Origin: a virus
Length of the DNA: 64,000 nucleotides
IMG/VR virus record: IMGVR_UViG_3300035092_000015
Location: 16,876-80,875 of that record
Strand: one strand, 5' to 3'
The translations under genes were made by a program, and so were the position numbers. Positions 31,105 to 55,446 of this stretch are shown piece after piece. Numbering within the stretch: the first letter of the stretch is position 1; each line of letters starts with the position of its first letter. A model generated the notes under the pieces. It had not been told where the DNA came from. It was given only the letters and a program-made list of their open reading frames with translations, and ran no database searches.

Positions 31105-31445
31105 CCGGCAAGATCCCAGAGAGCGTCTTCATCGACGCCAACCGGGCCCGCAACAGCGAAGTGCACGGGCTGAACAACGGCGGGCTCGAGCGTCTGATCG
31201 TCATCGGCGCCCGCGAACGCGGATTCCGCGCCGCCGTCGCCGCCGCCTACCGCGCCGGCCAGGCCAGTACAATAGACCCATGCACCCACACGTGTGGAAC
31301 CCCCGGCTGCACCCCCGCGACCGGATCGGCCAGTTCACCGACACACCCGGCAGCGGGTCGTGGCTCTCCCGGGCTGCCGAGCAGGCCCGGCGCGGGTTCA
31401 CCGACGCCGAGCTTGCACAGCGCGAGCAGGACGTCAACGACCTGA
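31101..31445 (+). CDS. Hypothetical protein (114 aa), end uncertain
   Basis: The first 55 residues (VFIDANRARNSEVHGLNNGG and a helical RERGFRAAVAAAYRAG) look coding. From residue about 60 on it overlaps the zeta-like kinase gene in another frame for 166 bases and becomes low complexity. Either the overlap is real or only the N-terminal part matters. Confidence 0.45.
   Translation: MTGKIPESVFIDANRARNSEVHGLNNGGLERLIVIGARERGFRAAVAAAYRAGQASTIDPCTHTCGTPGCTPATGSASSPTHPAAGRGSPGLPSRPGAGSPTPSLHSASRTSTT
31268..31273 (+). promoter_or_regulatory. Putative leaderless -10 box
   Basis: TACAAT lies 6 bases before the ATG at 31280, so the start point would coincide with it. No good -35 is seen. It fits the recurring TA-x-AAT boxes at 32687, 33289, 41496 and 57613. 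Confidence 0.4.
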
Positions 31446-32197
31446 TCGCCGGGAGCCGCCATCTGGACACCCACCGGGTGCACAAACCGAACGGACGCTG
31501 GTCCGACGAACGGGCCGCCGCTCACCGGGAGATCTTGGACAGGGTGTGGGCGGAGAAAGCCACCCGGGTGCCGAACGAACACCGGGCGGTGATGACCGGC
31601 GGGTTGATGGGCGCCGGAAAGACCACCGTCCTAGCCGGACACCCCGAGATCGACATGTCCGACTACCTGATGGTGTCGGCCGACGACATGAAAGAGGAGA
31701 TCATCCGCCACGGTCTGGTCCCGCGCATCCCGGGCGCCGAACACCTGTCGCCGATGGAGCTGTCGGCGATGTACCACGTCGAATCGGCCTACCTGGCGGA
31801 CGCACTGGCCGAACGCGCCTACGCCGAAGGGAAGAACGTGATCCTGGATGCGTCGATGGGCGACCGGACTGCCCCGGCGGCGCGGCTGGCGCGGCTGCGC
31901 GACATGGGCTACCAGGTCCGGGGGGTGTTCGTCGACATCCCGGTCGAGACGAGCCTGCAACGGGCGTCGGCCCGGTACCGGTCGGGGATGCAGCAGTGGG
32001 GCAGCGGTACCGGCCCGGGCGGGCGGACGATCCCTCCGGCGTTGATCGAGGGGCAACGCGGCCCGGGTGGGATGACGAAGAACCGGGTGGTGTTCGACCA
32101 GCTGCGCGAGGAGGGGTTGTTCGGGGCGGGGTGGGAGGTACACGACAACACCGGGTCGGCGCCGGTGCTGTTGAAGCGCGGAGGAATACAGACGTGA
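31280..32197 (+). CDS. Zeta-toxin-like P-loop kinase with N-terminal HPRD tag
   Basis: A 305-residue protein. Residues 11-20 read HPRDRIGQFT, the tag shared with many late proteins in this window. GGLMGAGKTT (107-116) is a Walker A loop, followed by a zeta/Chl-P-kinase-like arrangement: VSADDMKEEI, a long helix with HVESAYLADALAERAYAEGK and VILDASMGD. Zeta enzymes phosphorylate UDP-N-acetylglucosamine or related sugars and can block wall synthesis. No antitoxin (epsilon-like) gene is obvious next to it. If injected with DNA it would act on the host at once; that is inference. Confidence 0.72.
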   Translation: MHPHVWNPRLHPRDRIGQFTDTPGSGSWLSRAAEQARRGFTDAELAQREQDVNDLIAGSRHLDTHRVHKPNGRWSDERAAAHREILDRVWAEKATRVPNEHRAVMTGGLMGAGKTTVLAGHPEIDMSDYLMVSADDMKEEIIRHGLVPRIPGAEHLSPMELSAMYHVESAYLADALAERAYAEGKNVILDASMGDRTAPAARLARLRDMGYQVRGVFVDIPVETSLQRASARYRSGMQQWGSGTGPGGRTIPPALIEGQRGPGGMTKNRVVFDQLREEGLFGAGWEVHDNTGSAPVLLKRGGIQT

Positions 32198-32230
32198 CAC
32201 GGAGCGTTGCACTTAGAGGAGGAGTGTCGC

Positions 32231-32497
32231 ATGGGCAGCAGCAGGACGGTGCAGCAACTGGTGGACGATCTCGCATCTGGCAGGATCAACCTGGATCTGG
32301 CGGTGAGGGATTTTGGGACCCGCCGTTGGCCCGGCCCGGCGCCGGAGACCGCGCAGCAGCGGCACGGGGTGCACGACGCGGACCTGCCCGACCCGAACAG
32401 TATCGATTGGGTGCAGGTGAGCCCCGGGCTGTCAGACGAGCAGCGTCGCGCGTTGCTGCGCGTGTACGACCAGCGTACGTCCCGCTCTGGGCGTTGA
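32231..32497 (+). CDS. Hypothetical protein (88 aa)
   Basis: ATG 32231 is preferred over an in-frame TTG because AGAGGAGGAG lies just upstream. VQQLVDDLASGRINLDLAVRD is a helical segment, then WVQVSPGLSDEQRRALLRVY. No family recognised. Confidence 0.6.
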   Translation: MGSSRTVQQLVDDLASGRINLDLAVRDFGTRRWPGPAPETAQQRHGVHDADLPDPNSIDWVQVSPGLSDEQRRALLRVYDQRTSRSGR

Positions 32498-33028: not shown

Positions 33029-33050
33029 CCTTGTTCCCTCTCTGATGGGC

Positions 33051-33803: not shown

Positions 33804-33950
33804 CTATCCGGGGATGTGTTCGATCAGCACCGCGACCACAAACGCACAGAACCCGCCCCAACCCAGCCGCTCCGGGATCAACCCGAACGCAGCCAGCCCC
33901 GACAGGACCAACGCCAACAGCAGGAACAGCAAAACCAACACGGTTGCCAT
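33804..33950 (-). CDS. Reverse-strand small membrane protein (48 aa)
   Basis: ATG 33950, stop TAG at 33804. Two hydrophobic segments: TVLVLLFLLLALVLSGLAAF and GGFCAFVVAVLIEH around an LIPERLG turn. A TAAACA placed 6 bases before the ATG could be a leaderless -10. It is convergent with the upstream gene at the hairpin and divergent from the terminase genes. Small reverse-strand membrane proteins may be morons expressed in a lysogen; here that is inference. Confidence 0.55.
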   Translation of the reverse strand: MATVLVLLFLLLALVLSGLAAFGLIPERLGWGGFCAFVVAVLIEHIPG

Positions 33951-33967
33951 ACCGGGTGTTTACCCAC

Positions 33968-34009
33968 CGCGACCCCCGGGCATGCTACCATCGGGTAGCC
34001 AGGGTCGCG
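33968..34009. repeat. Nested inverted repeat before small terminase
   Basis: Outer arms CGCGACCC (33968-33975) and GGGTCGCG (34002-34009) enclose inner arms GCTACC (33984-33989) and GGTAGC (33994-33999). The element ends 26 bases before the small-terminase ATG. It could be an operator, a terminator, or part of the packaging recognition site. Confidence 0.5.
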
Positions 34010-34035
34010 ATGACCCCTGGATAGGGAGAGTCGAG

Positions 34036-34572
34036 ATGACCAAACCCGCCGAAGGTAAACGGCTAAGCGGCAACCCCGTCGGGATCCGGGTCAGCCCCAA
34101 CAAAGACAGCCTCATCGCCCGCCGGATCCGCGCGGTTGAACTGCGCGTCCAAGGCATGACCCTCAACCAGGTCTCCCAGGCCACCGGCGTCAACCCACGG
34201 ACCGTCCGGATCGACATCGACACGGTGTTGCGCGAGCGGGACGCGGAGACCATCCCGAAGCTGCGCGCGCTGGAAGAGGAACGGCTCGACCTGGCCGTCC
34301 GGACCGCGACCGCGATCATCGAAGCCCACCCCGGGACTGAACTGGCGTTGAAGGCCGTCGACCGGTTGATCCGGGCATCGGCCCGCCGCGCCGGGCTGCT
34401 CGGGTTGGACGCCCCGGTGGAGTTGAACATCCGCAGCACCGAGGTGACCCAGGCAGACCTCGAGTTGGACGAGCTGATCCGGGAGGCGCAGGCACGTAAC
34501 GCGAACACCCGGGAACAGCTGATCGCGCAGGCAGGCGGTGGCGGTGACGACACGGCAACCCCGGTGGCCTAA
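34036..34572 (+). CDS. terS: Terminase small subunit
   Basis: A 178-residue protein. The N-terminal half has a helix-turn-helix (ELRVQGMTLNQVSQATGVNP then RTVRIDIDTVLRE), the usual DNA-recognition element of small terminases, followed by helices (LEEERLDLAVRTATAIIEAH) for ring assembly. It is two genes ahead of the large terminase. It recognises the packaging site. Confidence 0.75.
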   Translation: MTKPAEGKRLSGNPVGIRVSPNKDSLIARRIRAVELRVQGMTLNQVSQATGVNPRTVRIDIDTVLRERDAETIPKLRALEEERLDLAVRTATAIIEAHPGTELALKAVDRLIRASARRAGLLGLDAPVELNIRSTEVTQADLELDELIREAQARNANTREQLIAQAGGGGDDTATPVA

Positions 34573-35068
34573 GGGTACGCCGTGGCAGCGGCAGGGACCT
34601 GGCCCGGGACGTTGGGCTGAGCAGCTGTCGGCGCAGCTGCCCGGCCACGTCGAAGAGCCTGACTACCGGGGGGTGCACCAACCACCCGACCCCCGTGGCG
34701 CCGACACCGTGATGCGGCTGGACGACCTCGAAGCTGACATGCCCGACGTGTACGAACACCCCGAATACTACCTGTCCAGAGAAACCGAGGGCTGGCGGGA
34801 AGCAGTCCGCGCGATGCGCGCCGTCCGGGGCCGACCCGACGCTACGATCACAATCTACCGGGCCGCACCGCCCGAGGCGGGGGCGATCAACCCCGGCGAC
34901 TGGGTCAGCACCAGCCGGGCCTACGCCGCGACCCACGGTAGACACGCCCACGACCCCGCCCAGGACTGGCCGGTCATCTCGATGCAGGTTCCGGTCAGGG
35001 ACGTGTACTGGGGCGGGAACGACTTCACGGAGTTCGGGTACTGGCCCGGTGTTGAGGAACGGCCGTGA
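34544..35068 (+). CDS. ADP-ribosyltransferase-like protein with tag
   Basis: About 174 residues from GTG 34544 (GTG 34538 adds two). Starts with VTTRQPRWPKGTP and a GPGPGRWAEQLSAQLPG segment, the late-protein tag. The rest resembles an R-S-E ADP-ribosyltransferase: TIYRAAPPEAG (Arg), GDWVSTSRAYAATHG (S-T-S) and GGNDFTEFGYW (Glu). It would transfer ADP-ribose from NAD to a host target, as T4 Alt does after injection. The position between the two terminase genes is unusual. ART assignment rests on motif order only. Confidence 0.68.
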   Translation: MTTRQPRWPKGTPWQRQGPGPGRWAEQLSAQLPGHVEEPDYRGVHQPPDPRGADTVMRLDDLEADMPDVYEHPEYYLSRETEGWREAVRAMRAVRGRPDATITIYRAAPPEAGAINPGDWVSTSRAYAATHGRHAHDPAQDWPVISMQVPVRDVYWGGNDFTEFGYWPGVEERP

Positions 35069-36684
35069 CTGCCGTTCTGCCTGGGCTCGAGCTTGAGCTT
35101 GACGCCCCGCCGCTGCCCTGGATCACCGACCCGTACCACCCCGAGGTCAACGCTGAGAACTTCGACCTGTACGGGTATCTGGCCCAGTTCGACCCCAGGC
35201 TGTTCACCCACAGCCGAGGCCGGCGTGAGATCACCCGGTACGACCCGATCCTGTTCGCGATCGTTTACTTCCCGCACCACATCCGCACCGACGGGCGGAT
35301 CTCATTCGCCGACCCGCATTTCCAGTGGGCCGGCGCCGCCCGACGGTGGATCGTCCCCGCCGGGCTGAAGCAAGACCGGCACGCCTACGTCGCCCCCCGC
35401 GACACCGGCAAGTCGACCTGGTGGTTCCTGCTGCTGCCGATGTGGGCCGCCGCGCACGGGCACATCAAGTTCGCCGCCGCGTTCGCCCACTCCGGCACCC
35501 AATCCGAGACCCACCTGCACGCGTTCCGCTCGGAACTGGCCGAGAACCAACGGCTGCGGCAGGACTACCCCGACCTGTGCACCCCCGCCAGGAAGCCGAA
35601 CGGGAAAACCACCGCCGACAACATCCAGATGTTGCGAACCAAGGCCAACTTTGCGTTCGCTGCGCGTGGGGTGGACGCGGCGAACCTCGGGTTGAAGGAG
35701 AAAGACACCCGCCCCGACCTGATCCTGCTGGACGACGTCGAACCGGACGAAGCCTCGTACAGCCAGTACCAGATGGAGAAACGACGCGGGACCATCATCG
35801 AGGCGATCCTGCCGATGAACCTGCGCGCCCATGTCGTGCTGGTCGGGACCGTCACCATGCCCGGCAGTATCGTCCACCAGCTGGTCGCAGTCGCGAGAGG
35901 CGACACCGAGGTCGAAGCGTGGGTCGGGGAGGAGAACTTCGCCCCGCACCACGCCCTGCCGATCTGTCTACGCGACGACGGGACCGAACGAAGCATCTGG
36001 CCCGCGAAATGGCCCCTGTCGTTCCTGATCTCGATCCGCCGGACCCGATCCTACCTGAAGAACTTCGCCAACGACCCGATGGGCACCGAGGGCGGGTATT
36101 GGACGTTGGAAGATTTCACCTACGGCGAACTGGGCAACCCGACCCGCTGGTTCCTCGCGTTGGACCCGACGATCACCACGAAAACCCGCTCCGACCCGGC
36201 CGGGGTCGCGGTCATCTCCTATGCCCCCGGCTATGTGATCCCGGCCGAGTCGCCGCGCAGGCTGCCGGCGAAGGTCCCGAGCCGGTGTCTGGTGGAGTTC
36301 GCAGCGGAGGTGAAGCTGGTCGGGGAGGGTCTGCGCCGGTACCTGTTGAAGGTCTTGCAGCGGTACCCGAGGGTCAAGGCGATCATCGTCGAAGGCAACC
36401 AGGGCGGGGAGAACTGGCACGCGATCCTGCACGATATGCCGGTCCGGGTGGTTGTCGTGTGGTCGGAGGAGAAGAAGGAGGTCCGGGCGGCGAACCTGCT
36501 GGAGCTGTACCAACACAACCCGCCGAGGGTCCTGCACCCGGAGCCTGGGGCGGTGGTGGCGCTGGAGCAGCAGATGGCGTCTTTCCCCCGGGGCAAGGAC
36601 GACATGGTGGACGCGGTCGGGTCGGTGTGTCTGCGTGTCCTGGGGAAGCCGCCGAAGAAGGGCCAGACGTTCTTCCCGGTCTGA
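35065..36684 (+). CDS. terL: Terminase large subunit
   Basis: A 539-residue packaging motor. ATPase: Walker A variant APRDTGKST (110-118) and Walker B LILLDDVE (219-226). C-terminal nuclease: FLALDPTIT, a KAIIVEGNQGG strand and DDMVDAVGSV provide the acidic metal ligands. It translocates DNA into the prohead and cuts the concatemer. GTG start overlapping the preceding stop. Confidence 0.92.
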   Translation: MTAVLPGLELELDAPPLPWITDPYHPEVNAENFDLYGYLAQFDPRLFTHSRGRREITRYDPILFAIVYFPHHIRTDGRISFADPHFQWAGAARRWIVPAGLKQDRHAYVAPRDTGKSTWWFLLLPMWAAAHGHIKFAAAFAHSGTQSETHLHAFRSELAENQRLRQDYPDLCTPARKPNGKTTADNIQMLRTKANFAFAARGVDAANLGLKEKDTRPDLILLDDVEPDEASYSQYQMEKRRGTIIEAILPMNLRAHVVLVGTVTMPGSIVHQLVAVARGDTEVEAWVGEENFAPHHALPICLRDDGTERSIWPAKWPLSFLISIRRTRSYLKNFANDPMGTEGGYWTLEDFTYGELGNPTRWFLALDPTITTKTRSDPAGVAVISYAPGYVIPAESPRRLPAKVPSRCLVEFAAEVKLVGEGLRRYLLKVLQRYPRVKAIIVEGNQGGENWHAILHDMPVRVVVVWSEEKKEVRAANLLELYQHNPPRVLHPEPGAVVALEQQMASFPRGKDDMVDAVGSVCLRVLGKPPKKGQTFFPV

Positions 36685-36719: not shown

Positions 36720-38729
36720 TTGACCAGAGCGCTCACCCCGGCCCACGCCGCCCAGCTGCAGGTCGGAACCATGACCACCGCCGGCTACGGCACCCCCGCC
36801 CTGGTCAACCCCGGCAACCCGGTGGAGATCACAGTCACCCCCGACAGCGACGGCGACGGACAGCACCTCGATACTGGCGCCACCGGGCTGTTGATGCGCA
36901 GCCTCGCCGAACTGGACGCCGCCCGCCCCGAATACGCCCTAGCGGACGAGATGTACGACGGGACCGTCGAAGAACTGCACGTATCCGACGCCATCGCCCG
37001 GCTGCTGGCACAATCCGGCGTGAACAACATCGAAAACCTGAACTACGCGAAAGTCCCAGTCGACACCATCGCCGAGAAGCTGCAGATCCGCGCGATCACA
37101 GTCTCTGCCGGCGACCTGGCCGAGGACGACAGCCACGACCCCGACCGGGAGATCGGCGAAGCCGACCGCGACATCGAAGACGACCCTGAGGTCGACGAGC
37201 AGAAAGAAATCAGCAGTCACGCGCAGGAGCTGCTGGACGAGATCCGCAAACGCAACCAGCTCGACGCGGAAGAACCCGAGCTGATGAAAACCTGCTCCCG
37301 CTACGGCGAAGGCTACCTGTTCGTCTGGCCGGTGGTGGCCGACCCGGAAGGCTACGAAGAAGCCTCACCGCTCGAGCCGGACCAACCCGCCCGGATCGTC
37401 GGGGTTGACATGTTCGTCAACAGCCCGTACACCACCCGGGCGTACTACGACGCGGAGAACCCGCTGCGGATGACCCACGTCCTGAAATCGTGGGAGTGGT
37501 ACGACGAGGCCAACGACGCCGACCGGCTCCGCGCCACCCTGTACTTCCCCGACCGGATCGAACGTTGGGTGGTCAAGCTGCAGGGCGACCAGGCCCGCCG
37601 CGAAGACTGGGAGCACTACGTCGAGGGCGACGAGCAGTGGCCGTTGGACAACCCGACCGGCGAGATCCCGTTCTTCCACCTGCGCAACGCCCGCCCCTAC
37701 GGCGTGCCCGAACACCGGGCAGCGTACGGGCCGCAACGGTTGATCAACAAACTGGTCAGCACCCACGCGGCGACGATCGACTTCCAGGGCTGGCCGCAGC
37801 GGTACTTCCTGATCGACCCTAAAGCCGACGACCCGATGATGAACCTGCTCGACCCGGACAACCCCGAGGACGATGGGGACGACCCGGAAGGCAGCGGACG
37901 CAGCCCGTTCCGGGCCGACCCGGCAGCGGTGTGGAAGATGTTCGCCAGCGCGGTCGGGCAGTTCCAGGCCGCCGACCCGCAAGTGTTCATGGCGCCGCTG
38001 GACCGGTACATCAAGTCGATCTCCGAACTGTGCGGGATCCCGCTGGACCGGTTCGTCGGGTATTCGACCCCGCCGTCGGGGGAGTCGCGGAAGGCCGCGA
38101 ACGAACCGCTGTACGAGAAGGCCGGGTCGCGGCAGGACTCGTACGGGCCGGTGATGGAGGACGCGTACGAGTTCGCGCTGCAGCTGCTGGGTGTGACCGA
38201 TGTGACGGTCGACGTGAAATGGAAGCCGCTGCAGGTCGCGGTTGGGCTCGAGGATTGGAACATCATCCAGGCGAAGATCGGCAACGGTGTCCCGGTCCGG
38301 CAGGCGTTGATCGAAGCCGGCTACCCGGAGGACGAGGTCGACATCTGGCTGGTGGATGAGACCGGCGCGGACCTGGTCCGGCGGGTGGCGTTGTTGAACT
38401 CGATCGGGACCGCGATCCAGGCGATGTCGGCCGGTGTCGCGGTCGGGATGGTCTCTCCGGAGCAGGCCGGCGACATCATCGCCCGGATCATTGGGGCGGT
38501 TGGGGAGAACCTGCCGCGTCTGGCGAAGCCGGTCGCGTTGCATCCGCAGATGCAGCAGATGGCGGACCAGATGCAGAAGGACGCCCGGGGTCAGCAGGTG
38601 GCTGAGCATATCGCGTCCGCGCCGCCGCAGCCGCAGTTCGACCCGGAGGGTAAGCCTATCCCGCCGCCGCCTGACCGGCCGTTGCCGCCGATGCCGCCCC
38701 CGCCGCCGCCAGTAAGGGTCGGACGATGA
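36720..38729 (+). CDS. Portal protein
   Basis: A 669-residue protein, a typical size for actinophage portals. Placed directly after the large terminase. Features: VADPEGYEEASPL, TRAYYDAENPLRMTHVLKSW, VSTHAATIDFQGWPQRYF and GIPLDRFVGYSTPP (SPP1/HK97-type portal landmarks), with a helical crown and a Pro-rich C-terminus. TTG start at 36720 has AGAGAGGGGG upstream; ATG 36771 is an alternative. It forms the dodecameric DNA gate. Confidence 0.85.
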   Translation: MTRALTPAHAAQLQVGTMTTAGYGTPALVNPGNPVEITVTPDSDGDGQHLDTGATGLLMRSLAELDAARPEYALADEMYDGTVEELHVSDAIARLLAQSGVNNIENLNYAKVPVDTIAEKLQIRAITVSAGDLAEDDSHDPDREIGEADRDIEDDPEVDEQKEISSHAQELLDEIRKRNQLDAEEPELMKTCSRYGEGYLFVWPVVADPEGYEEASPLEPDQPARIVGVDMFVNSPYTTRAYYDAENPLRMTHVLKSWEWYDEANDADRLRATLYFPDRIERWVVKLQGDQARREDWEHYVEGDEQWPLDNPTGEIPFFHLRNARPYGVPEHRAAYGPQRLINKLVSTHAATIDFQGWPQRYFLIDPKADDPMMNLLDPDNPEDDGDDPEGSGRSPFRADPAAVWKMFASAVGQFQAADPQVFMAPLDRYIKSISELCGIPLDRFVGYSTPPSGESRKAANEPLYEKAGSRQDSYGPVMEDAYEFALQLLGVTDVTVDVKWKPLQVAVGLEDWNIIQAKIGNGVPVRQALIEAGYPEDEVDIWLVDETGADLVRRVALLNSIGTAIQAMSAGVAVGMVSPEQAGDIIARIIGAVGENLPRLAKPVALHPQMQQMADQMQKDARGQQVAEHIASAPPQPQFDPEGKPIPPPPDRPLPPMPPPPPPVRVGR

Positions 38730-39199
38730 CCTGGGGACCAAGCGACGAGCAGAAACACCCTCGCGACCGGGCTGGGCGGTGGGCCGAGAAGCTGTCCGAT
38801 CTGATCGGCCAGCGCCGTTACCGTGGCATGCTCGCTGACTTGGCGGCGATGTCCGCAGACACCCCGGAGCACCGACAACAGGGGGCGGCGGCCCGCCGGG
38901 AGACGGCTGAGTGGTTGCGTGGTCTTCTGTCCGACCCGGAGTCCGGGCACGCTACGATCCCGGTCGGTGTTGGTGTCCTGCTCGACTTGGCTGACGTGAT
39001 CGCGGGTGGGGAGTGGCAGGTCGCCCCGGCGTGGGGGTCGGGTGAGCCGGGCGGGGTGATCCGCCGGGTGTACACCGGCGGGCCGGGCGCCGGGTCGCTG
39101 CGGATTGAGACCGACGGGGGGAATCTGGATTTCCCGATCCCCGAGCCGTGGTCACGGGGCGAAGAGATCCGCATCCAACGCGCCTTCCGTCGGGGGTGA
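38726..39199 (+). CDS. Tagged late protein (157 aa)
   Basis: ATGA overlap with the portal. Starts MTWGPSDEQKHPRDRAGRWA then EKLSDLIGQ: the complete bipartite tag. The remainder is helical (RRETAEWLRGLLSDPESG) and then beta-rich (WQVAPAWGSGEPGGVIRRVY). No catalytic motif found. First of a 17-kb run of tagged genes between portal and scaffold. Confidence 0.65.
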   Translation: MTWGPSDEQKHPRDRAGRWAEKLSDLIGQRRYRGMLADLAAMSADTPEHRQQGAAARRETAEWLRGLLSDPESGHATIPVGVGVLLDLADVIAGGEWQVAPAWGSGEPGGVIRRVYTGGPGAGSLRIETDGGNLDFPIPEPWSRGEEIRIQRAFRRG

Positions 39200-39202
39200 C
39201 CT

Positions 39203-40048
39203 GTGACGTGGGGACCGGAGGAGGAGCGGGCACACCCGCGCGACGCTGAAGGCCGTTGGACTGACCGGCTCGATGCCCGGCTGCGTCGGCTGCCGGATTT
39301 TCCGGCCGATGGGACGCGGATGCAAGCATCCGAGATGGCGTACCGTAAACGCTGGCTGGACGAACACGGTCGGTACAGCGGGCTGGAGATCTGGCACCCG
39401 AACCAGGGCACTTGGGCGGACGCAGCCGACGCCTTCCCAAAGGGCCGCTCCTACGGGCCAGCTGACGAGGACGACCCGATGAAGGGTATCAAGCTGGACG
39501 ACCCGTACGGGATCGGGATGGAGGCGCATTGGACCCCCTCCGCTCCGATCCACGTCCGCAGGAAACTCGAGCCGGTCCGCCGGGTCGACCAGACGCGGGA
39601 GAAACCCAACCCGAGGATGGAGTACCTGCACGAGGAGACCGGCGTGTGGGTGCCAGGGGCTAGGCTTGACGTTGACCCTGACACGGGGATGTGGGATGCG
39701 TTCGGCAGCCCGTTCGGCTCGGGGAAGGTTGCCGAACGGCCGCACTACCCGCCGACGAACTTCGACAAGCAGACCGTCGCCTACGGGTTCACCCCGGAGG
39801 ATCACGCGTTCAACGGGATGATCCGAACCATCCACCTGCAGGACGTGGTCGACCAGCCGTCTTACCTGCAGGGCGGGTACCAGATGCTCGGGCAGGACGG
39901 GCAGTGGCACACCCTGGAAGAGGCGTACCAGGTCTATCCGGAGCTTGAAGACTCGGATCTGTTCGAGTTGATCGCGGGGGATCTGCATTTCCCGGAGATC
40001 GAAGCGTCGTCGGAGTTGACGGTCCGCCGCACCCCGATGGACTACTGA
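39203..40048 (+). CDS. Tagged protein with beta module (281 aa)
   Basis: GTG 39203; starts MTWGPEEERAHPRDAEGRW with TDRLDARL after it. Two copies of the beta-rich module seen across this block: one around residues 33-113 (ending IHVRRKL) and one near the C-terminus (GYQMLGQDGQWHTLEEAY, then a strand and SELTVRRTP). The repeated W...LEE...VRR pattern suggests a small beta-barrel, perhaps for capsid or DNA contact. Confidence 0.62.
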   Translation: MTWGPEEERAHPRDAEGRWTDRLDARLRRLPDFPADGTRMQASEMAYRKRWLDEHGRYSGLEIWHPNQGTWADAADAFPKGRSYGPADEDDPMKGIKLDDPYGIGMEAHWTPSAPIHVRRKLEPVRRVDQTREKPNPRMEYLHEETGVWVPGARLDVDPDTGMWDAFGSPFGSGKVAERPHYPPTNFDKQTVAYGFTPEDHAFNGMIRTIHLQDVVDQPSYLQGGYQMLGQDGQWHTLEEAYQVYPELEDSDLFELIAGDLHFPEIEASSELTVRRTPMDY

Positions 40049-41097: not shown

Positions 41098-41475
41098 GTG
41101 TCGTGGGGCCCGGACGACGAGCGCAACCATCCACGCGACCCTGCGGGGCGGTGGGCGGAGAAACTGTCTGCCAGGATGATCCATCCGTTCGACGATTTGG
41201 ACTACCCGGAACCCCGCCCACATGGGAACCGGTCGTTTGCTGGGGCGAAGATGGTCCCGGTGTCGGCGATGTTGCAACGGCTGGAGCTGTGGAGTGGGCA
41301 GGTCGATGTGTACGACCAGCGCAGCGACCGGTGGGTGAACCTGGGCGAGGTCCGGCCGGGCCGGGGTACCGACCGGGTGCAGTTTCGGGGCCGGGGTCCG
41401 GGTCCGGCGTTGTTCTCCCGGAATCGGACGGATAGCGTGATTGTCCGGAGGGCTACCGGACAAGCAGGGGCGTGA
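41098..41475 (+). CDS. Tagged protein with one beta module (125 aa)
   Basis: GTG 41098 after GGAGGAGGG. Starts MSWGPDDERNHPRDPAGRWA and EKLSARM. The remainder is one beta module (VPVSAMLQRLELWSGQVDVY, RSDRWVNLGEVRPG, ending DSVIVRR). It could be made alone or as an amber-readthrough fusion with the upstream protein. Confidence 0.62.
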   Translation: MSWGPDDERNHPRDPAGRWAEKLSARMIHPFDDLDYPEPRPHGNRSFAGAKMVPVSAMLQRLELWSGQVDVYDQRSDRWVNLGEVRPGRGTDRVQFRGRGPGPALFSRNRTDSVIVRRATGQAGA

Positions 41476-47500: not shown

Positions 47501-47805
47501 TCGACTTCGCTACCCGCGACAGCGCCCGGTTCACACTCATGGGGATGACCAGCCAGATTGTCGGCGCCCACCAGGCAGGCCGGATCGACGACCGGACGCT
47601 GCATGAGGCGCAGGAGCTGCAACGGCGGTTCGACGCCGGGGAGCACATCACCCCGTTGGAGATCGCGATGGTCGGCTGGCGGTCCCGGGCCGAGTTCGTC
47701 GACTTAGAGCCGGCGCCGTTGGATCCGAACGGCGACCCGATCGAGATGTGGTGGGGTAAGAGGTTCCTGCTGGGCAGGAGTTGGTCAGGGGTGATGCAGC
47801 TGTGA
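44563..47805 (+). CDS. Large tagged multi-domain protein with C-terminal GNAT-like domain
   Basis: A 1080-residue protein, the largest complete gene here. Starts with DDQPRWPEGTPVRPDG and HGPGGGRFRGTG, the long tag. Helical region (about 60-240), three beta modules (around 255-330, 350-425 and 650-725, ending LIARRVP, VAIRFP and TITARF), an Asp/Tyr-rich stretch, then near residues 895-985 a region like an acetyltransferase (YHAYFKMYDNQGGGFATRWL, then SADIDVGGYAWAKMGFDF). GNAT assignment is tentative. It may be an internal virion protein delivered with DNA. Confidence 0.62.
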   Translation: MARRRYGMHPGDDDQPRWPEGTPVRPDGHGPGGGRFRGTGDVGGADVGDLVSGLQGASSRPWYETAAGQIAQQRGGGHPRVAYNLAVINAAQAQYNENRGDGFHDEQLPQLIGQYNVAEAQGNPAGQDVAVDQLRLWIDSHYPEQWAGALPARVEAREAPRAADQDQRNSAALDLARTAQANIEVNTGDPDDALAIRIEALERHLGRTGHRVEADREAAALRRYMDHEMDQEAASPPGTAVMHARLEASRPSGEGQELRASEIALQYMSGRPLELNLLDGRGWGRITDYSEESGGTEHRFELQYEDGGGDEIFMGSTDRLIARRVPGSLPDQAQQPEMDHDRNLRLVNAMETPEGGEVTAAELLELVGNGHRLEVLGRHGWDRVETVDVSGEGDHFIYLENDPEPISMSPEGRVAIRFPQTPEPATASTGLSLGGNPLTDRDAWNRLVVHLARQHNDNRARDGLGRDEVMDQMVADIEHPDVTDVQGVADSNAEVLRQRLERMYRASIIDPPTRRAEPQFTIPETGVISAAEDVNRVRRVTGQAEDAHLADMLRVVRGELPGDPHGMVAAMRQRLQQIHGVTVPGGDDLEALNDRDLRDLGIEYDIAVPAPPLAPDYRADLIARIRYRQQADANRGVSRAAAHSNVNWADTHISHQRPRFYRQAVDDYQMPLQIRDAQGQWRTVTSIGYPTNGQYEITHDGPTGHTFVPENHTITARFGSDRSGTTNQDRQRFNQQVAVVAESMLEQVAPEDRADDEGYTRLRAALDSYNDTTSNPNDQESIDSAVDDLVNELADWDIYFDVPPYQDYDSGGPSYLPPSRYNGGVYTGDDEEDDYYDQPAIPEIYGNTLAAAISQWPQDNDGDLPSGYEDRAAEIWDWHDPVTGYRAEVTSVGVDGDGLSVEGRVYDGDTEIGKFTRTINSSRPQRIYHAYFKMYDNQGGGFATRWLDQVKQQYRDQGFTEIGVSADIDVGGYAWAKMGFDFATRDSARFTLMGMTSQIVGAHQAGRIDDRTLHEAQELQRRFDAGEHITPLEIAMVGWRSRAEFVDLEPAPLDPNGDPIEMWWGKRFLLGRSWSGVMQL

Positions 47806-48313: not shown

Positions 48314-49330
48314 GTGCCGGCGCCCCGCGACCAGCCGCGTTGGCCCCGGGGATCGCCCGACGACCCGGAGGGTAGAGGCCAGGGCGGACGGTGGCGTGAA
48401 CGCAACGCCGCCACCATGTGGTCCGACCAGCTGTACACCCGGATCGGCGGGATCCCGCCCTGGGCCGATCGCTCGTACATCGCCCGGTTGGCGTTGCTAC
48501 GTCCGAAACGGGAAGGCCGGATATCTGGCGGGTCGGTGGCGCAGACCCAGCAGCTGGACTACGACGGCGGCGGGGTCGCCATCCGTAAGACCTTCTCCGA
48601 CGACGACGACGGGAAACGGGCAGCATCGGCCGAATACCTGTCGTCGTTGGTGTCCGACGTCGTGGGGGCGATGGCCCCGGCAGTGGTGAAAGACCCGACC
48701 GACCCGGAACACGCGGTGATCATGGGCCGGGTCAACGGCGACCTCGGGACGATGCACACCGGGTCGAAGGACGCCACCGAATGGGGCGAGGCCCGGTACT
48801 GGTACGCCGAGTCCGACGCCGGCCGTAGGATCGGGCTGTTGGATGTCCTGATCGCGAACCGCGACCGGCATTCGATGAACTGGATCATGTCGAACGAACT
48901 GGACGCCCCCCACGCGTGGCGGCCGGACCAGGGCACGATACGTCGGCCGATCCCGATCGACCATTCGGAGGCATTCCAGGACACGTTGATCGCCGGGGCC
49001 GGGTTGAAGATCGTCAGCCCTGAAGGGCAGTACACCGCCCCGATGGAGCTTCTGGCGTACCGTGGTTTCACCGGTGCGTGGCTGCAACGCGCGGGGGAAC
49101 TGGCCGACGAGTCGGGGGTGGCGATCGACGCCCACTCGGTCGGCGGGACCCTGGCATACCAGGAGAAGAACCCACTACACCCGGACGATGTTCCGGTCCT
49201 ACGGGCCCGGTTGGAGGCTCTGCGACCGAGGTTCGCCGACGAGGATATGCTCGAGCAGTACACGTTGATGATGCGCCGGTTCGAACACCTCGCGCGGCGG
49301 GCTGCCGGGACCGAGCGGATGTTCCCATGA
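48314..49330 (+). CDS. Tagged PI3/4-kinase-like protein 1 (338 aa)
   Basis: GTG start. Tag: RDQPRWPRGSPDDPEG, RGQGGRWRERN, then MWSDQLYTRIGG. N-lobe strands SVAQTQQLDYD and VAIRKTF (possible ATP-site Lys), a hinge-like HAVIMGRVNG, catalytic loop ANRDRHSMNW (about 180-189) and metal-loop IPIDHSEAF (about 213-221). This DRHxxNW...IDH arrangement is that of PI3/4-kinase-like enzymes. It likely phosphorylates a protein or lipid in the host after injection (inference). First of four related neighbours. Confidence 0.68.
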   Translation: MPAPRDQPRWPRGSPDDPEGRGQGGRWRERNAATMWSDQLYTRIGGIPPWADRSYIARLALLRPKREGRISGGSVAQTQQLDYDGGGVAIRKTFSDDDDGKRAASAEYLSSLVSDVVGAMAPAVVKDPTDPEHAVIMGRVNGDLGTMHTGSKDATEWGEARYWYAESDAGRRIGLLDVLIANRDRHSMNWIMSNELDAPHAWRPDQGTIRRPIPIDHSEAFQDTLIAGAGLKIVSPEGQYTAPMELLAYRGFTGAWLQRAGELADESGVAIDAHSVGGTLAYQEKNPLHPDDVPVLRARLEALRPRFADEDMLEQYTLMMRRFEHLARRAAGTERMFP

Positions 49331-50244
49331 GCCGCGACTGGGACCCCGACAAGCACCCCCGCGACCCGGACGACGGACGATTCACCGAGACGTGGGCCGC
49401 CCAGGCAGTGGCCAGACTCTGGCGGCCCAGGACTCACAACGAACTGGCCGACCTGGTCAAACGGGACGATTACACCGAATCTGACCTCGCAGGCGGCAGT
49501 TCCTCCCACACTCGGCTGTACACCTACAGCACCGGAGAACGGGTGGTGCACAAAACCGCCTTCGGTCAAGAAGACGAAGATTTCGATGAGTTCAGCCGGG
49601 ATGATTATGAAGGCGGCTACGGGCCGCCGCCCGGCGAAGAGAACAGCGTCACCTGGGACCAACTGGACGCGATCCAACAGGCCGAAAACGAAACCATCGC
49701 CAGCCTGATCGGACGCGCCATCGGCGCTCCCGTCCCCGCTGCCGTGTACGACCACAGCCGCCGCGATTCGATCTACATGGACTACGTGCCCGGCCGGACT
49801 GCTTGGGCCGAGTTCCAGCACCGCAACCCGCGCGGCAGGCACACCGAGTTCTACCAGATGCAGCAGCAGCTGGCTGCCACCGATCAGGGCCGGCTGTTGG
49901 GGCTGCTGGACCTGTTGATCGGCAACGGTGACCGCAACGGCAACAACTGGATCATCGACCCCGACGGGCGGATCTGGGGGATCGACCACGCGCACAGCTT
50001 CGACCAGGGCGACGGCGGCGGTGTGTCGGATTTCGCCGACCCGATCATGATCCGGCGTCTCGACCCGGACGATAAGATCGTCGACTTTCATCCAGACGAT
50101 GCCCGCGAAGCCGCCCGGCGGATCGCCGAACTGCGACCAGCGATCGACCGGCCCGGAGTGTGGCCGAGTGTCAACGATATGCTGGACACTCTGGAGCAGC
50201 TGGCCCGGCACGGCGACCCAGACGCCCCCCGGAGGATCTTGTGA
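49327..50244 (+). CDS. Tagged PI3/4-kinase-like protein 2 (305 aa)
   Basis: ATGA overlap. Tag: DPDKHPRDPDDGRFTETWAA. N-lobe: SSSHTRLYTYSTGERVVHKT (Lys), GRAIGAPVPAAVYD, IYMDYVPGRTAW. Catalytic loop GNGDRNGNNWI (from residue 199), metal-loop GIDHAHSFDQGD (from residue 218). An acidic insert lies between the N-lobe strands. Same family as the neighbours. Confidence 0.7.
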   Translation: MSRDWDPDKHPRDPDDGRFTETWAAQAVARLWRPRTHNELADLVKRDDYTESDLAGGSSSHTRLYTYSTGERVVHKTAFGQEDEDFDEFSRDDYEGGYGPPPGEENSVTWDQLDAIQQAENETIASLIGRAIGAPVPAAVYDHSRRDSIYMDYVPGRTAWAEFQHRNPRGRHTEFYQMQQQLAATDQGRLLGLLDLLIGNGDRNGNNWIIDPDGRIWGIDHAHSFDQGDGGGVSDFADPIMIRRLDPDDKIVDFHPDDAREAARRIAELRPAIDRPGVWPSVNDMLDTLEQLARHGDPDAPRRIL

Positions 50245-51023
50245 CCCGCGACTGGGACGAGGCCGAACACCCCCGCGACGAGGCCGGGCGGTTCACCGAA
50301 GCCTGGGCCGCATCACTGCACGGGCTGATGTTCCCGGGCAACGGGCTGATGACCCACGACGACCTGGACAAATACCGCGACCGGACCGACTACACCGCCG
50401 AACGGCTCGGCAACTCGTCCAACCCGGTGCACCTGCGGACCTACAGCGACGGGCGGCAGCTGGTCCACAAAGAACACGAACTCGACCATCAGGCCGACAA
50501 CGAGATCCGGGCCTCCTGGATGGGTTGGGCCGTCGGCGCACCCGTCCCGGCCGTGGTGTCCGACCCGGAAGACCCCGAATACGGCACCCTGTCGGAGTAC
50601 ATCGACGGGCTCACCCCGTCCTGGCACTCCAGCCCGGAGATGGTCCAGTGGGCCCAGGGACGGACTGGCGCCGACCGGTTGGGGCTGTTCGACCTGCTGG
50701 CCGGCGCCGCCGATCGGCACAACTTCAACTGGTTGGTCGACGACGACGGGCACGTCTATGGGATCGACCACGCCGACGTTGAGTTCGGGAGGGAGAACGT
50801 AGCGATCGGGCCGTTCGTCCAGTTGTACTACTACAGAGACAGAGGTTCGGCCAATCCGGCTGTCCCCGGTCGGTACATCCAACCGCCACTGACCCAGGCC
50901 CAGCTGCAGGTCGTGGAGCAGCGGCTGGAGCACCTGCGGTACCAGCGTAAGATGTTCAGCCCCGGCGAGTGGCGCGGGATCCGTAAGATGCTCGAGCAGG
51001 TCAAACAGAAAGCTATGCCATGA
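50241..51023 (+). CDS. Tagged PI3/4-kinase-like protein 3 (260 aa)
   Basis: GTG (GTGA overlap). Tag: DEAEHPRDEAGRFTEAWAAS. N-lobe VHLRTYSDGRQLVHKE, then GWAVGAPVPAVVSD and LSEYIDGLTPSW. Catalytic loop AADRHNFNWLVDDDG (about 156-170), metal-loop GIDHADVEF. Shortest of the four; its C-terminus is a helix pair. Confidence 0.7.
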   Translation: MTRDWDEAEHPRDEAGRFTEAWAASLHGLMFPGNGLMTHDDLDKYRDRTDYTAERLGNSSNPVHLRTYSDGRQLVHKEHELDHQADNEIRASWMGWAVGAPVPAVVSDPEDPEYGTLSEYIDGLTPSWHSSPEMVQWAQGRTGADRLGLFDLLAGAADRHNFNWLVDDDGHVYGIDHADVEFGRENVAIGPFVQLYYYRDRGSANPAVPGRYIQPPLTQAQLQVVEQRLEHLRYQRKMFSPGEWRGIRKMLEQVKQKAMP

Positions 51024-51895
51024 CCGACCAGCCGCGTTGGCCCGGAGGAACCCCAGTCGCCCCCGACGGGAAAGGCCCTGGTGGCGGCCGGTTCCGCGAC
51101 AGCGTCCCCGAAGGGTGGGCGTTGCAGACCGCGCTAGTGCTCGGGCAGAAACAACCCTGGAAGCGGATCTCACGCGGCGAGCTGAGCCTGGCCGTACGGC
51201 GCGGCACCGACGCCGCTGCCGCCGACAAACTGCACGGCGGGGAGATGGCCCAAACCCAGATCTTCACCCACCCCGACGGGCAGGCGGTCGTCAAGAAGAC
51301 CTACGGCCGGTTCGACCACGACTCAGTCGACTCGGAATACCTGACCGGGTTGGTGTCGGAGGCGATCGGCGCACCCACCCCGGCGGTGGTCCGCGACCCC
51401 GACGGCGACCCAGCTGTCGTGTGGATGCAGTACGTGCCGGGTTCGTTGGCTGCGTCGCAGCTGCCCCGACGGTTGACCCCCGACCCGTACGCGTCTGATG
51501 ACGCGGCGCTGCTCGGGCTGCTCGACATCCTGACGTTGAACTGGGACCGCAACGCCGGCAACTGGAAGCACGCCCCCGGGAACAGGATCGTCGGGATCGA
51601 CCACGGCGAGGCGTTCAAGATCTCAGCCCCGGACAACCCGGACGGATCGCCCGGCATCCCCCGGCAGATGCGCGACTCCGGGTTCACGAAGCTGTACGCC
51701 GACCGGGGTGTCCTGGGTTGGTCCTGGAGGGACAACGACCTGCACCCCGACGACCTGGAGGCGCTGCGGCCGAGGCTGCAGGCGCTGCGGGCACAGTTCG
51801 TCCAGGGCCACCGGGGCAGCTACCACGACGCGATGATGCGCCGACTGGATGAGCTGCAACGCCGCGCCCGGGGGACCCGCCGGAGGATCCAATGA
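51020..51895 (+). CDS. Tagged PI3/4-kinase-like protein 4 (291 aa)
   Basis: ATGA overlap. Tag in long form: TDQPRWPGGTPVAPDG and GKGPGGGRFRDSVPEGW. N-lobe: AQTQIFTHPDGQAVVKKTYG, EAIGAPTPAVVRD, VVWMQYVPGSLAAS. Catalytic loop LNWDRNAGNWKH (about 173-184) and metal-loop GIDHGEAFKI. It shares SVAQT/MAQT and IDH(S/G)EAF with kinase 1, so 1 and 4 may be closest. Confidence 0.7.
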   Translation: MTDQPRWPGGTPVAPDGKGPGGGRFRDSVPEGWALQTALVLGQKQPWKRISRGELSLAVRRGTDAAAADKLHGGEMAQTQIFTHPDGQAVVKKTYGRFDHDSVDSEYLTGLVSEAIGAPTPAVVRDPDGDPAVVWMQYVPGSLAASQLPRRLTPDPYASDDAALLGLLDILTLNWDRNAGNWKHAPGNRIVGIDHGEAFKISAPDNPDGSPGIPRQMRDSGFTKLYADRGVLGWSWRDNDLHPDDLEALRPRLQALRAQFVQGHRGSYHDAMMRRLDELQRRARGTRRRIQ

Positions 51896-52956
51896 CCCTG
51901 CCGGTAGGACCGACAGACGAGCAACTCGGCGTCGAACTGCGCGCCGCCGCGATCCTCACCAACGAACTGCGCCAACAGCTGGAGGTCGCCACCCGGCAAA
52001 TCGCAGCTTTGTACATCGGGCTGGCCGGCAGTTTGAGCCAACCGCTGCCGCCGCCGGTCCGCCGCCGGTTCGCCGACGCTGCCGGGCAGATCATCGCCCG
52101 GGTGGCGGTCGACATCCGGGTTCCGTTGTGGGAGATGGTCCTGCAGGCGTTGGATCTGGGGCAGCAGTCGGCGACTCCGTTTGTGCAGCAGGTCCCGGCC
52201 CGGCTGCGCAGCTACAGCCAACACACCTACGACCAGCTGGTCGCTGGATTGCAGCAGCTGGAACGCCCACCGGCGACGGTACACCAGTGGGTGGTTGCGT
52301 TGGCGGCGGCTGCCCAGGCAAGGATCGACGCGCAGTTGTTGTCCGCGCAATCAGCCGGTCAGGTCGGGGCGCCTCCGGCGGATTTCGCGGAGGTCCTGGC
52401 GCGGATCATCGCCCCGGCCGAGCAGGCGTTGACCGGGCTTGAGCGGGACGCGCGGTGGGCGACCAACGCCGGGTTCAACATGGGGGTCCGGGAGGTTGCG
52501 GACCTGGCCGGGGTGTCGCGGATGTGGATCGCCGAACGCGACGCGTGCCTGCACTGCTTGGCGTTGTCCGGTGAGATCGCCGGGCCGGGTCAGCCGTACA
52601 ACGCGAGCCTGACGTTCTACATCGGGCCGAACGGGCTGTTCAAACCGCTACCGGTCTATCCGGTCGGCCCGTTGTGGGGTCCGCCCCGGCACCCGAACTG
52701 CCGGTGTTTCCAACGACCCGCGCCGGTGCTAGCCGGGTACCCGGTCCAGCCGTGGGAGTCGGGGCCGTACACCCCGTCGCAGGCGTTGAAGCGCGAAGCC
52801 CGCCGGTCAGTTCTGCGCGGGGTGAGCGGGTCGGATTCGCTGCCGGCCCGGTTGCGCGCCACGGATGCTTTACTGGCCGTGGGTGCTGGGCTGCCGGTGT
52901 CGGTGGAGCGGCGGGCCCGGCAGGCGGTGCGTCGCGGCGGATACGGGGGGAGGTGA
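51892..52956 (+). CDS. MuF-like minor head protein
   Basis: A 354-residue protein. The MuF core is clear: VSRMWIAERDACLHCLALSG, then GPPRHPNCRCF, the W-x-A...D-x-C-x-x-C...P-P-x-H-P-x-C-R-C pattern. N-terminal helices may contact the portal. MuF proteins sit inside the capsid near the portal and are often fused to toxins. Here it lacks the HPR tag, while the neighbours carry it and the enzyme domains. Confidence 0.8.
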   Translation: MTLPVGPTDEQLGVELRAAAILTNELRQQLEVATRQIAALYIGLAGSLSQPLPPPVRRRFADAAGQIIARVAVDIRVPLWEMVLQALDLGQQSATPFVQQVPARLRSYSQHTYDQLVAGLQQLERPPATVHQWVVALAAAAQARIDAQLLSAQSAGQVGAPPADFAEVLARIIAPAEQALTGLERDARWATNAGFNMGVREVADLAGVSRMWIAERDACLHCLALSGEIAGPGQPYNASLTFYIGPNGLFKPLPVYPVGPLWGPPRHPNCRCFQRPAPVLAGYPVQPWESGPYTPSQALKREARRSVLRGVSGSDSLPARLRATDALLAVGAGLPVSVERRARQAVRRGGYGGR

Positions 52957-52961: not shown

Positions 52962-53051
52962 ATGGCGAAGAAGGGCCGGTTGGGCAACTTCGGCGGGAAG
53001 AAGGCCCCGCCGTTCACGAAGAAGAGCGGCAAGGGCGGTAAGAAGAAGTGA
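52962..53051 (+). CDS. Tiny Lys/Gly-rich protein (29 aa)
   Basis: ATG 52962 after GGGAGG, stop overlapping the next GTG (GTGA). Sequence is almost only Lys, Gly and a few Phe/Pro (MAKKGRLGNFGGKKAPPF then a Lys-rich end). Probably DNA-binding. The overlap supports translation. Confidence 0.5.
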   Translation: MAKKGRLGNFGGKKAPPFTKKSGKGGKKK

Positions 53052-53809
53052 CGCAGCAGCGTTGGCCCCGGGGCACCCCGATTGCCCCGGGCGGCCACGG
53101 CCCAGGTGGCGGACGTTACCGGGGTGTGTCCAGTTCGGCGTTCGACGATGATGATCATGACGTGTGGGTCAGCACCGTGTCGGACCGGATGGAGGCGTTG
53201 AAGCGGACCCCGCCGTGGATCTCCGGCCGGGCCGAGTGGAAGCAGCACCACCGCGACCAGTGGGTGGCCAAAGCGGCCGAGACGTTGAACGAACTGGGCT
53301 ACCAGGCGGTGGACGCGCCGAACGGCGGGCTGTTGCCCCACCCGCAGGGCTACCCGGGTGCGGCGGGATCCTACCACTACCGGTTCTCTCCCGAGACCCT
53401 CGGCGAGGTCTACGACCAACATGCCTACCGGTACTACCCGCACGACTACATGATCGACGCCATCGGCATCCTCGAGGACGGGTCGCCCGTCGGCTTGGCC
53501 GAGCTGCGCAGCGCCCGAGGCGACTGGCGGGTCTCGATGCAAGCCTACGGCGAAGGACCGGACACGAAAGAGATCCTCGGGCATGCCCTGGCTGCGCACC
53601 CCGACTACGCCACCTCCGGGGACTTCTCTATCCGGACACCGTCCGGCGAGTGGGCGATGCTGGAGGAGATGTACGTCGACCCGGAAGACCCGGACACGGT
53701 CGAGTTGCATGCCGGGGATCAGGTGTGGGAGATCGACACCAGCGACGATGTCCTGATCCGGCGGGACTGGGAGCCGAAGTACCGCAGCCCTGAACTCGGG
53801 AAGAGGTAA
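53048..53809 (+). CDS. Tagged protein with C-terminal beta module (253 aa)
   Basis: GTG. Tag: TQQRWPRGTPIAPGGHG and GPGGGRYRG. Middle part is alpha/beta (YHYRFSPETLGEVYDQHAYR, MIDAIGILEDGSPVGLAEL). The C-terminal module SIRTPSGEWAMLEEMYVD, ending in DDVLIRRDW, matches those of the 39203 and 42709 proteins. Enzyme activity not recognised. Confidence 0.6.
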   Translation: MTQQRWPRGTPIAPGGHGPGGGRYRGVSSSAFDDDDHDVWVSTVSDRMEALKRTPPWISGRAEWKQHHRDQWVAKAAETLNELGYQAVDAPNGGLLPHPQGYPGAAGSYHYRFSPETLGEVYDQHAYRYYPHDYMIDAIGILEDGSPVGLAELRSARGDWRVSMQAYGEGPDTKEILGHALAAHPDYATSGDFSIRTPSGEWAMLEEMYVDPEDPDTVELHAGDQVWEIDTSDDVLIRRDWEPKYRSPELGKR

Positions 53810-53811
53810 CC

Positions 53812-55446
53812 GTGGCCCGCAGGTTCGTCGAACACGACCACCCCCGGTGGCCAGCTGAAGCCCCGGACGGCAAAGGTGGGGAGTTCCGCGACAAAACCCC
53901 CGACATCGGCGGCGGCGGGGATTGGGCCGATCGGCTGTCCGGACGGATCGGGGTGCAGTCGGCGGGCCGGCACGGGTCGGTCGCGACCGGGCTGCGCCAG
54001 ACCTGCCCGGTGTGTTACCGGCAGGTGAAGGTGGTCGGGTCGGGGAAGCTGTCGACCCACAACGGGCACGACGGGAAACGCTGCCCCGGGTCCGGCCAGC
54101 CGGCTACAGTCAAACCACCGGCGGACATCCAACGAGCCCCGAGCCGGGCGACCGGGGTGAAGCCGCCCGCGAAGAAGGCCACCCGCCGCGCGGCTGGCGG
54201 CACGTTGCGGCCACCGCCGCCGCCGAGGGTCACCCCCGGGGCGTGGGACGCACCGGTCACTGGTGCGGCCGAGACCCGGATGGCCGATTGGCGGTCCCGG
54301 ACCATGCACCGTCAGGCCGACGGGTCGATGTACCACCCGAACACCGCCGCGACCCGGGCGGCGGAGATCCAACGGTTGCACCACGACATCCAGGCCGAGG
54401 AGAAGAACCTGGAGGGCCGGCGCAACACAGCGGTGTACAACGCCGCGAGGATCGACCTCGGGTTGAAGCACTGGGAGATCATCCCGTACGGTAAAGAGAA
54501 GGACTACGCCGACGCCGCCGACGCCGACCCGCAGGTGCTGGCGGCGGAGGCCAGGCTCCAGTCGCTGCGCAACCAGCTGGACTACGCCGAGTTGGCGATC
54601 AAACACGACCGGCCGTTCGACCCGACCAACCCGCTCGCGTACTACGGGTCGATGCTGCACATCGAATCGAACGACTGGTTCGCCTACGGGGTCCTGGACC
54701 AACTGGAGCAGCGTGTCCCGCCCGCGTTCCACAAAGCAGTCGCGGAGTGGCTGGCGTTCCAGAGCCGGCACAACAACAGCGCAGGGATCTGGGTCGGATC
54801 CACCCACAGCATCCGCGACCTGGACAACCTCAGACGGCAGATCACCAAACCGCCGCGCGGGTGGGGCAAGAAAGCCACTATGGCCACCTGGGACGACGTG
54901 GACGGGGTGGTGTCCGGCAGCGCCGTCTACGCGGTGGTCCACACCGACAACAGCGAATCGCACCTGCGCAGCCGCCGCCGGAGCCACCAGATGGCCGGCA
55001 TCCCGCAGGACCTGGCCGTCGGTGATGCCGGACTGCACGAGTTCGGCCATGTCCTGGACGCCGCGATGGGGTTCTTCAACACCAGCCGGGCCTACCGGTG
55101 GGACGACGCGTCGGCCCAGCGGAAGTGGCGTTTGATCCATGGTCGGATCAAGCGAGGGTCTCGGCGGCTGTCGCCGTACTACCGGCAGAAAGGCGACGCC
55201 GGCCCAGAGGAGTTCTGGGCGGATACGTTCTTCACTTGGGCATCGGCTGACCCGACTCCGACAACCGACCCGTTCTATGCTGGGGGCAGAGCCGGACGGG
55301 CGGTCACCACACGGGATTTGCTGATGCTGGAGACGTATGGCGGGCAGATCGAAGATGTTATGTCGATCTCGGACTACTTCGACGGGCTGCACCGGGATCT
55401 GGTCAGTGGGCGGCGGCTGCCCAGGATCGAACAGAGGAGGCCGTAA
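53812..55446 (+). CDS. Tagged zinc metalloprotease-like protein (544 aa)
   Basis: GTG. Tag: EHDHPRWPAEAPDG, GKGGEFRDK and GDWADRLSGRIG. Residues about 64-98 form a CPVC...H...C zinc motif ending in PGSG. The C-terminal third has HEFGH (409-413) with AGL before it and PEEFWADTF (from 465) downstream, the HExxH plus distal Glu layout of gluzincin/anthrax-lethal-factor-like proteases. A protease inside the capsid could process head proteins or be injected as an effector; I cannot tell which. Confidence 0.72.
   Translation: MARRFVEHDHPRWPAEAPDGKGGEFRDKTPDIGGGGDWADRLSGRIGVQSAGRHGSVATGLRQTCPVCYRQVKVVGSGKLSTHNGHDGKRCPGSGQPATVKPPADIQRAPSRATGVKPPAKKATRRAAGGTLRPPPPPRVTPGAWDAPVTGAAETRMADWRSRTMHRQADGSMYHPNTAATRAAEIQRLHHDIQAEEKNLEGRRNTAVYNAARIDLGLKHWEIIPYGKEKDYADAADADPQVLAAEARLQSLRNQLDYAELAIKHDRPFDPTNPLAYYGSMLHIESNDWFAYGVLDQLEQRVPPAFHKAVAEWLAFQSRHNNSAGIWVGSTHSIRDLDNLRRQITKPPRGWGKKATMATWDDVDGVVSGSAVYAVVHTDNSESHLRSRRRSHQMAGIPQDLAVGDAGLHEFGHVLDAAMGFFNTSRAYRWDDASAQRKWRLIHGRIKRGSRRLSPYYRQKGDAGPEEFWADTFFTWASADPTPTTDPFYAGGRAGRAVTTRDLLMLETYGGQIEDVMSISDYFDGLHRDLVSGRRLPRIEQRRP

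Follow-up and report, generated by a model that had tools for sequence, protein, structure and literature searches.

We examined a 64-kb window of IMG/VR record IMGVR_UViG_3300035092_000015, an 80,875-base record from an uncultured actinophage-like virus, in which a short motif centred on the residues HPR stands near the N-terminus of 16 proteins encoded around the phage head genes. This tag probably serves as an address that brings proteins into the phage head, to be delivered into the next host, because it occurs on 16 different proteins here and on head-gene-linked enzymes of unrelated phages from several bacterial phyla. Four observations bear on this proposal: the motif itself and its conservation, its location in the head module, the exchange of its carrier and the swapping of the bodies behind it.

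The tag in the window and in other genomes

A first-pass annotation, made from the window alone, had described a shared N-terminal tag on 16 proteins, and all 16 N-termini read as described when we returned to the open reading frames (ORFs; named below by their start positions in the window). Nine carry a short form, HPR[DN]..G[RQ][FW], and seven a longer [HQ]xRWP form, degenerate in 53048 (QQRWP). A strict search for HPR[DN]x2-4G[RQ][FW] in the six frames of the window returned nine matches, all at the starts of the named ORFs (residues 8–20). Profile A3, built from 59 tags of other phages with zero window sequences among them, matched the whole record only at window positions 31295–50310, always on tagged genes; a single window tag used as a tblastn query was too short for an informative result. 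Across the nine short tags, histidine is encoded by two codon types, proline by four, glycine by four and the arginine or glutamine by five, and the first arginine is CGC in 9/9. Because codons differ between tags, the tag is conserved as protein and not as DNA. The same annotation placed a W-A-x-x-[LI]-S helix after most tags; the strict WAxx[LI]S string is present in only 8 of the 16, whereas tryptophan with a helix-like segment follows in about 15.

More widely, the motif takes the form [WF][DN]Exx-[HQ]PR-(Dxx or WPxGTPxxG)-G[RK][FW], and is found either as an N-terminal tag or internally, at the junction of a portal, MuF or minor-head domain with an effector domain. A DNA pattern for HPRDxxG[RS]F found at least 120 stretches in IMG/VR, and 105 non-redundant short-form instances were taken from among the matches listed. 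In these, at positions outside the columns of the probe, an aromatic residue stands at −5 in 72/105 (6 expected) and glutamate at −3 in 58/105 (7 expected), and the bodies downstream form 61 clusters. Where the motif is internal, the segments ahead of it belong to families of portal, MuF, minor head, head morphogenesis and maturation-protease proteins and those behind it match zeta, Nudix, GNAT, LPD3, ParB-like and DarB-like families; Gly-rich linkers often follow the motif. The long form was found in 39 stretches, almost all of them in frame, and because several read like FDESKHPRWPKGTP..GGKF or WNEKLHPRWPKGTP..GGEF, the two forms are built on one common skeleton.

Wide occurrence on non-virion proteins, which the first-pass annotation had named as telling against a head address, was looked for in GTDB genomes. 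The pattern W-x-[DE]-x-x-HPRDxxG[RS]F gave only 33 matches in about 85,000 of them, from Treponema, Clostridia, Gastranaerophilales, Actinobacteria, Proteobacteria, Planctomycetes and others; 32 of the 33 are in frame, and 18 lie no more than 32 residues from the earliest start possible. Most of the neighbours that can be identified are prophage head genes: the phage families seen most often among 131 neighbours are those of portal, terminase, major head protein and head morphogenesis, a result that identifies the phage module and does not speak to the absence of non-phage neighbours, as PHROGs hold phage families only.

Several candidates were set aside. The match in Microbacterium phage Pavlo (E=8) lies in a protein without the motif; L033, L043, L083, tandem repeats in L090 and the out-of-frame L184 are chance matches or non-credible genes, and L201 and L227 probably are too. 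Separately, L031 (G010) and L061/L052 (G017) have up to 14 and 11 motif profile matches per record, several of them inside single ORFs of 2770–3918 amino acids; from their sequences, these are possible effector polyproteins with repeated tags.

Location, body exchange and carriers

Of 46 records (motif-scan contigs together with the window record, one relative and three isolates), 36 have their best tag no more than 5 kb from a portal or MuF gene, against 9.8 expected and a maximum of 22 in 20,000 random draws; with homologous groups collapsed to one, the count is 15/25 (5.0 expected, maximum 13). Portal and MuF were located in these same records with a few Pfam models, and because the Pfam MuF model misses the window's own MuF-like protein, the MuF counts are low. 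The isolates Sixama and GodonK, both Gordonia phages, and Gilgamesh (genomes of 115–129 kb) have one clear profile match each. Sixama gp73 and GodonK gp67 are tagged and directly follow the portal, and Gilgamesh gp48 is tagged and lies one gene beyond a portal-MuF fusion. This last protein, of a Streptomyces phage (L129:15917-29791), is 4625 amino acids long, is annotated as hypothetical and has its tag near the N-terminus.

In three relatives whose head genes are 94–98% identical to those of the window, the cargo that these genes flank has been gained, lost or swapped, while tags are retained. Thus 41098 is absent from all three closest relatives; 40246 keeps 90–95% identity over the tag in two relatives, with its body changed; and in one relative two extra genes with tags (L142:5693 and 6265) stand between terminase and portal. 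In this relative (record 3300017605_000880), an orphan tag, MRSWVPGDHPRGRGGRFRKK, at L142:11383-11442 runs at once into a stop codon (TAG), and is possibly, to judge from its sequence, a tag after loss of its body.

The carrier is exchanged as well. Among relatives of the tagged kinase, L156 is a fusion to Phage_Mu_F, L161 one to Phage_min_cap2 and L163 one to portal, and L158 bears an HPRD tag; no motif was detected in the three fusions. Because the same kinase occurs tagged or fused, the tag and the MuF/portal fusion look like alternative carriers of the same cargo. Likewise, the zeta body has the short tag in the window, the long tag in L231 and an intermediate, QPRDPHSGQW, in L199, and since it occurs on either form, the two look like equivalents.

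Tagged genes, head genes and other features of the window

The 16 tagged genes are as follows.

31280..32197, + strand: zeta-type kinase (Pfam Zeta_toxin, E=9.7e-15), short tag HPRDRIGQF at residues 11–19
34544..35068, + strand: ART-like protein (ADP-ribosyltransferase-like, by eye only), long tag QPRWPKGTP...GPGRW; PHROG 2579 'ParB C-terminal domain', E=2.5e-33
38726..39199, + strand: short-tagged protein by tag match, body without assignment; missing in two close relatives
39203..40048, + strand: short-tagged beta-module protein, from tag and shared beta modules
40246..41094, + strand: short-tagged protein, from tag and relatives; two relatives retain the tag with the body largely exchanged
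41098..41475, + strand: small short-tagged protein, from tag and relatives
41711..42712, + strand: protein tagged HPRWPAGTP...GGGRF, with weak kinship to the beta-module group by comparison
42709..43581, + strand: short-tagged beta-module protein, from tag and shared beta modules
43584..44330, + strand: short-tagged protein by tag match, body without assignment
44563..47805, + strand: long-tagged protein by tag match, 1080 amino acids; C-terminus GNAT-like by eye only
48314..49330, + strand: long-tagged predicted atypical kinase; PI3/4-kinase Pfam E=2e-5, under the curated cut-off; conserved DR..NW and IDH
49327..50244, + strand: short-tagged predicted atypical kinase, RIO/Bud32/HipT-like fold, from paralogy and a structure model
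50241..51023, + strand: short-tagged predicted atypical kinase, from paralogy
51020..51895, + strand: long-tagged predicted atypical kinase, from paralogy
53048..53809, + strand: protein with the degenerate long tag QQRWPRGTP...GGGRY, weakly like the beta-module group by comparison
53812..55446, + strand: zincin-like protein by sequence, HExxH (HEFGH), tag HPRWPAEAP...GGEF; Pfam match sub-threshold

The bodies had been described as completely different. They are indeed diverse, but not all distinct. Genes 48314, 49327, 50241 and 51020 encode paralogous proteins with invariant DR..N and IDH residues, and because the structure model of 49327 (predicted template modelling score, pTM, 0.77) matches RIO, Bud32/PRPK, CtkA and HipT kinases (41 PDB chains at E≤0.001), all four are predicted to be atypical kinases. 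Beta modules, whose predicted structure is a low-confidence model, are common to 39203 and 42709 and, more weakly, to 41711 and 53048. The earlier labels 'GNAT-like' for 44563 and 'metalloprotease' for 53812 found no Pfam match above threshold.

The head genes around the cargo are untagged.

33907..34572, + strand: small-terminase-like; PHROG 645, E=9.7e-26 (annotated 'Rnase E'); like the gene ahead of terminase in Zuko
35065..36684, + strand: terminase large subunit; about 45% identity to Streptomyces phage terminases, e.g. Zuko and Dryad
36720..38729, + strand: portal, SPP1 gp6-like; Pfam SPP1_portal, E=1.6e-8
51892..52956, + strand: MuF-like minor head protein; PHROG 2662 (C-terminal part) and 115; resembles Zuko and Dryad minor capsid proteins
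55677..56504, + strand: head scaffolding protein; PHROG 194, E=5e-10
57661..58839, + strand: major head protein; PHROG 10, E=3.7e-15

The identification of portal, MuF and terminase as untagged neighbours is thus borne out by Pfam, PHROG and terminase matches, as are scaffold and major head protein. The cargo had been placed between terminase and scaffold; it is interleaved with head genes up to the scaffold, but two of its genes, 31280 and 34544, precede the large terminase gene. Zuko, Dryad and OscarSo have the corresponding head genes in a compact arrangement and lack a cargo block of this kind, and a profile search found no credible tag in these genomes. Relatives of the MuF protein at 42–45% identity (L136-L138, L140) are likewise without tag and cargo block, and only about 0.5–0.8 kb separates the portal and MuF segments matched in them.

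Elsewhere in the window, an adenylosuccinate-synthetase-like gene (17464-18510, + strand; Pfam E=7.6e-32) has GSEAKG where cellular PurA usually has GDEGKG, and is accompanied by an adenylosuccinate-lyase-like gene (23892-25331, + strand) and a dUTPase gene at 19657. Judged by sequence, these form a possible PurZ-type pathway, i.e. a 2-aminoadenine genome. A tRNA-like gene with a CTA anticodon (33096-33167, + strand), which ARAGORN labels tRNA-Pyl, has a cloverleaf fold at −31.7 kcal/mol and is a candidate amber suppressor; it was not found in the relatives scanned, and TAG is the stop codon in 2 of 24 genes checked.

A proposed address for the phage head and its alternatives

The explanation that we favour, and consider probable, is that the motif is a short linear capsid-loading address of tailed phages. 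The element [WF][DN]Exx[HQ]PR...G[RK][FW] would ride on the N-terminus of separate effectors or at the junction of a head protein and its fused effector, and would be bound, while the head is being assembled, by one of the head components, most plausibly the portal/MuF complex or else the scaffold. The bound cargo would be drawn into the procapsid, exit with the DNA and act in the new host as kinase, ADP-ribosyltransferase-like, zeta-type or peptidase-like enzymes. Part of this had been claimed at first pass, namely that the tag loads procapsid cargo for injection: a shared address on head-associated cargo is supported by the portal/MuF location, the carrier exchange and the retention of tags in body swaps, whereas loading and injection are what we infer from it. 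The broader proposal, that one address code with interchangeable short and long forms directs effectors into tailed-phage heads across several phyla, so that injected effectors could be listed from sequence alone, seems to us evenly balanced between right and wrong.

Several points weigh against capsid loading. The records of the position test were picked for having the motif, the motif-scan contigs among them come from the at least 120 stretches listed, and many contigs are fragmentary. Some motif proteins themselves include portal or MuF and, as these are already head components, a loading signal in them would be redundant. Motif phages have diverse portals, so that a single conserved receptor is not obvious. 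Furthermore, no PDB chain was found with the motif, the best matches being two phage tail/baseplate proteins at E 0.8–2.9.

One rival is a role at ejection, in which the tag would be a starter or docking segment for unfolding and threading through portal and tail, needed by separate cargo and by effectors fused to portal/MuF alike. That would account for motifs between already encapsidated head domains and effectors, for the repeats inside one polypeptide in L031 and L061, and for the Gly-rich linkers; we nevertheless think it unlikely, as it leaves the head entry of separately encoded tagged proteins unexplained and the kinase fusions L156, L161 and L163 have no detected motif. The position at carrier-effector junctions would suit a processing site, where a protease would release effectors from their head carriers or shorten the N-terminus, and T4 capsid targeting sequences are indeed cleaved. 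We regard processing as decidedly improbable, because S78, S77 and ClpP-type proteases were not found in the window's record (the gp21-type S77 search had no positive control, its control search also matching nowhere) and no consistent T4-type [LI]xE site lies beside the 16 window tags. A trim of about 20 residues from a separate protein would also serve no obvious purpose.

The turnover of cargo behind retained tags could instead mark the edge of an evolutionary cassette, homologous N-termini persisting through recombination shuffling with no delivery role. To this we give hardly any credence, given the variable codons, the occurrence of the motif in phages that belong to different phyla and differ in their DNA, and the conservation of the −5 aromatic and −3 glutamate beyond the DNA probe. 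The adjoining terminase and portal genes might suggest undelivered late proteins that bind portal or terminase and regulate packaging or block competitors; this is very unlikely, since the same domains are found fused to portal and MuF, and injection is a widespread prediction for such fusion effectors (PMC5512222, PMC9503650).

Capsid loading by a short address has partial counterparts in known systems. The internal proteins of T-even phages show high diversity, and the capsid targeting sequence (CTS) is the one part that they conserve (PMC3012670). As with that signal, a short N-terminal sequence is common here to diverse, fast-changing proteins, packaged in T4 and presumably packaged here; the present tag, by contrast, is unrelated in sequence, is also internal, and extends to phages and prophages whose hosts span several phyla. 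The parallel with T4 drawn at first pass is one of function only; no consistent cleavage consensus was found, nor did the search without positive control find a T4-type protease. The best reading is by analogy: the tag would be functionally like the T4 CTS, with an unrelated sequence. MuF polymorphic toxins are also head-linked effectors with an exchangeable C-terminal domain and genes beside portal or terminase (PMC5576092), and the tagged genes likewise lie beside portal and terminase and join a conserved N-terminus to a variable C-terminus. In the present case a motif about 15 residues long takes the place of the MuF domain as carrier (a Pfam search found no such domain in the tagged window proteins), and there are many cargo genes per phage. 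Polyvalent proteins, predicted to be packaged, have overlapping effectors (ART, peptidase, ParB-like and LPD domains; PMC5512222, whose text does not contain the term HPR). In those proteins a single polypeptide holds the fused domains, whereas here they are mostly separate genes with a common tag, and a Pfam search found no window protein with two annotated effector domains. L031 and L061, with their repeated motifs, may be polyvalent-type proteins.

Encapsulin cargo-loading peptides are short peptides that bring enzymes into an HK97-fold shell; the likeness to the tag is one of description, and the shell here is a DNA-filled phage head from which cargo would presumably be ejected. PMC8346489 describes encapsulin loading as a dedicated mechanism. 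In the literature searched by full text, with most subscription papers and all preprints outside the search, the motif is unnamed and only unrelated papers were returned. Head-packaged effectors and targeting sequences are already known kinds; a short address common to phages across phyla appears new.

Outside a few models, it is mostly unclear which phage proteins enter the host with the DNA, for want of a general signal in their sequences. If the proposal is true, a recognisable address turns the finding of injected phage proteins into a search, and many uncharacterised phage enzymes gain a first hypothesis, early host takeover or counter-defence. The address could also be a handle for loading proteins into phage heads. 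Together, the T4 internal-protein signal and the MuF/portal effector fusions would be joined as alternative carriers for the same cargo.

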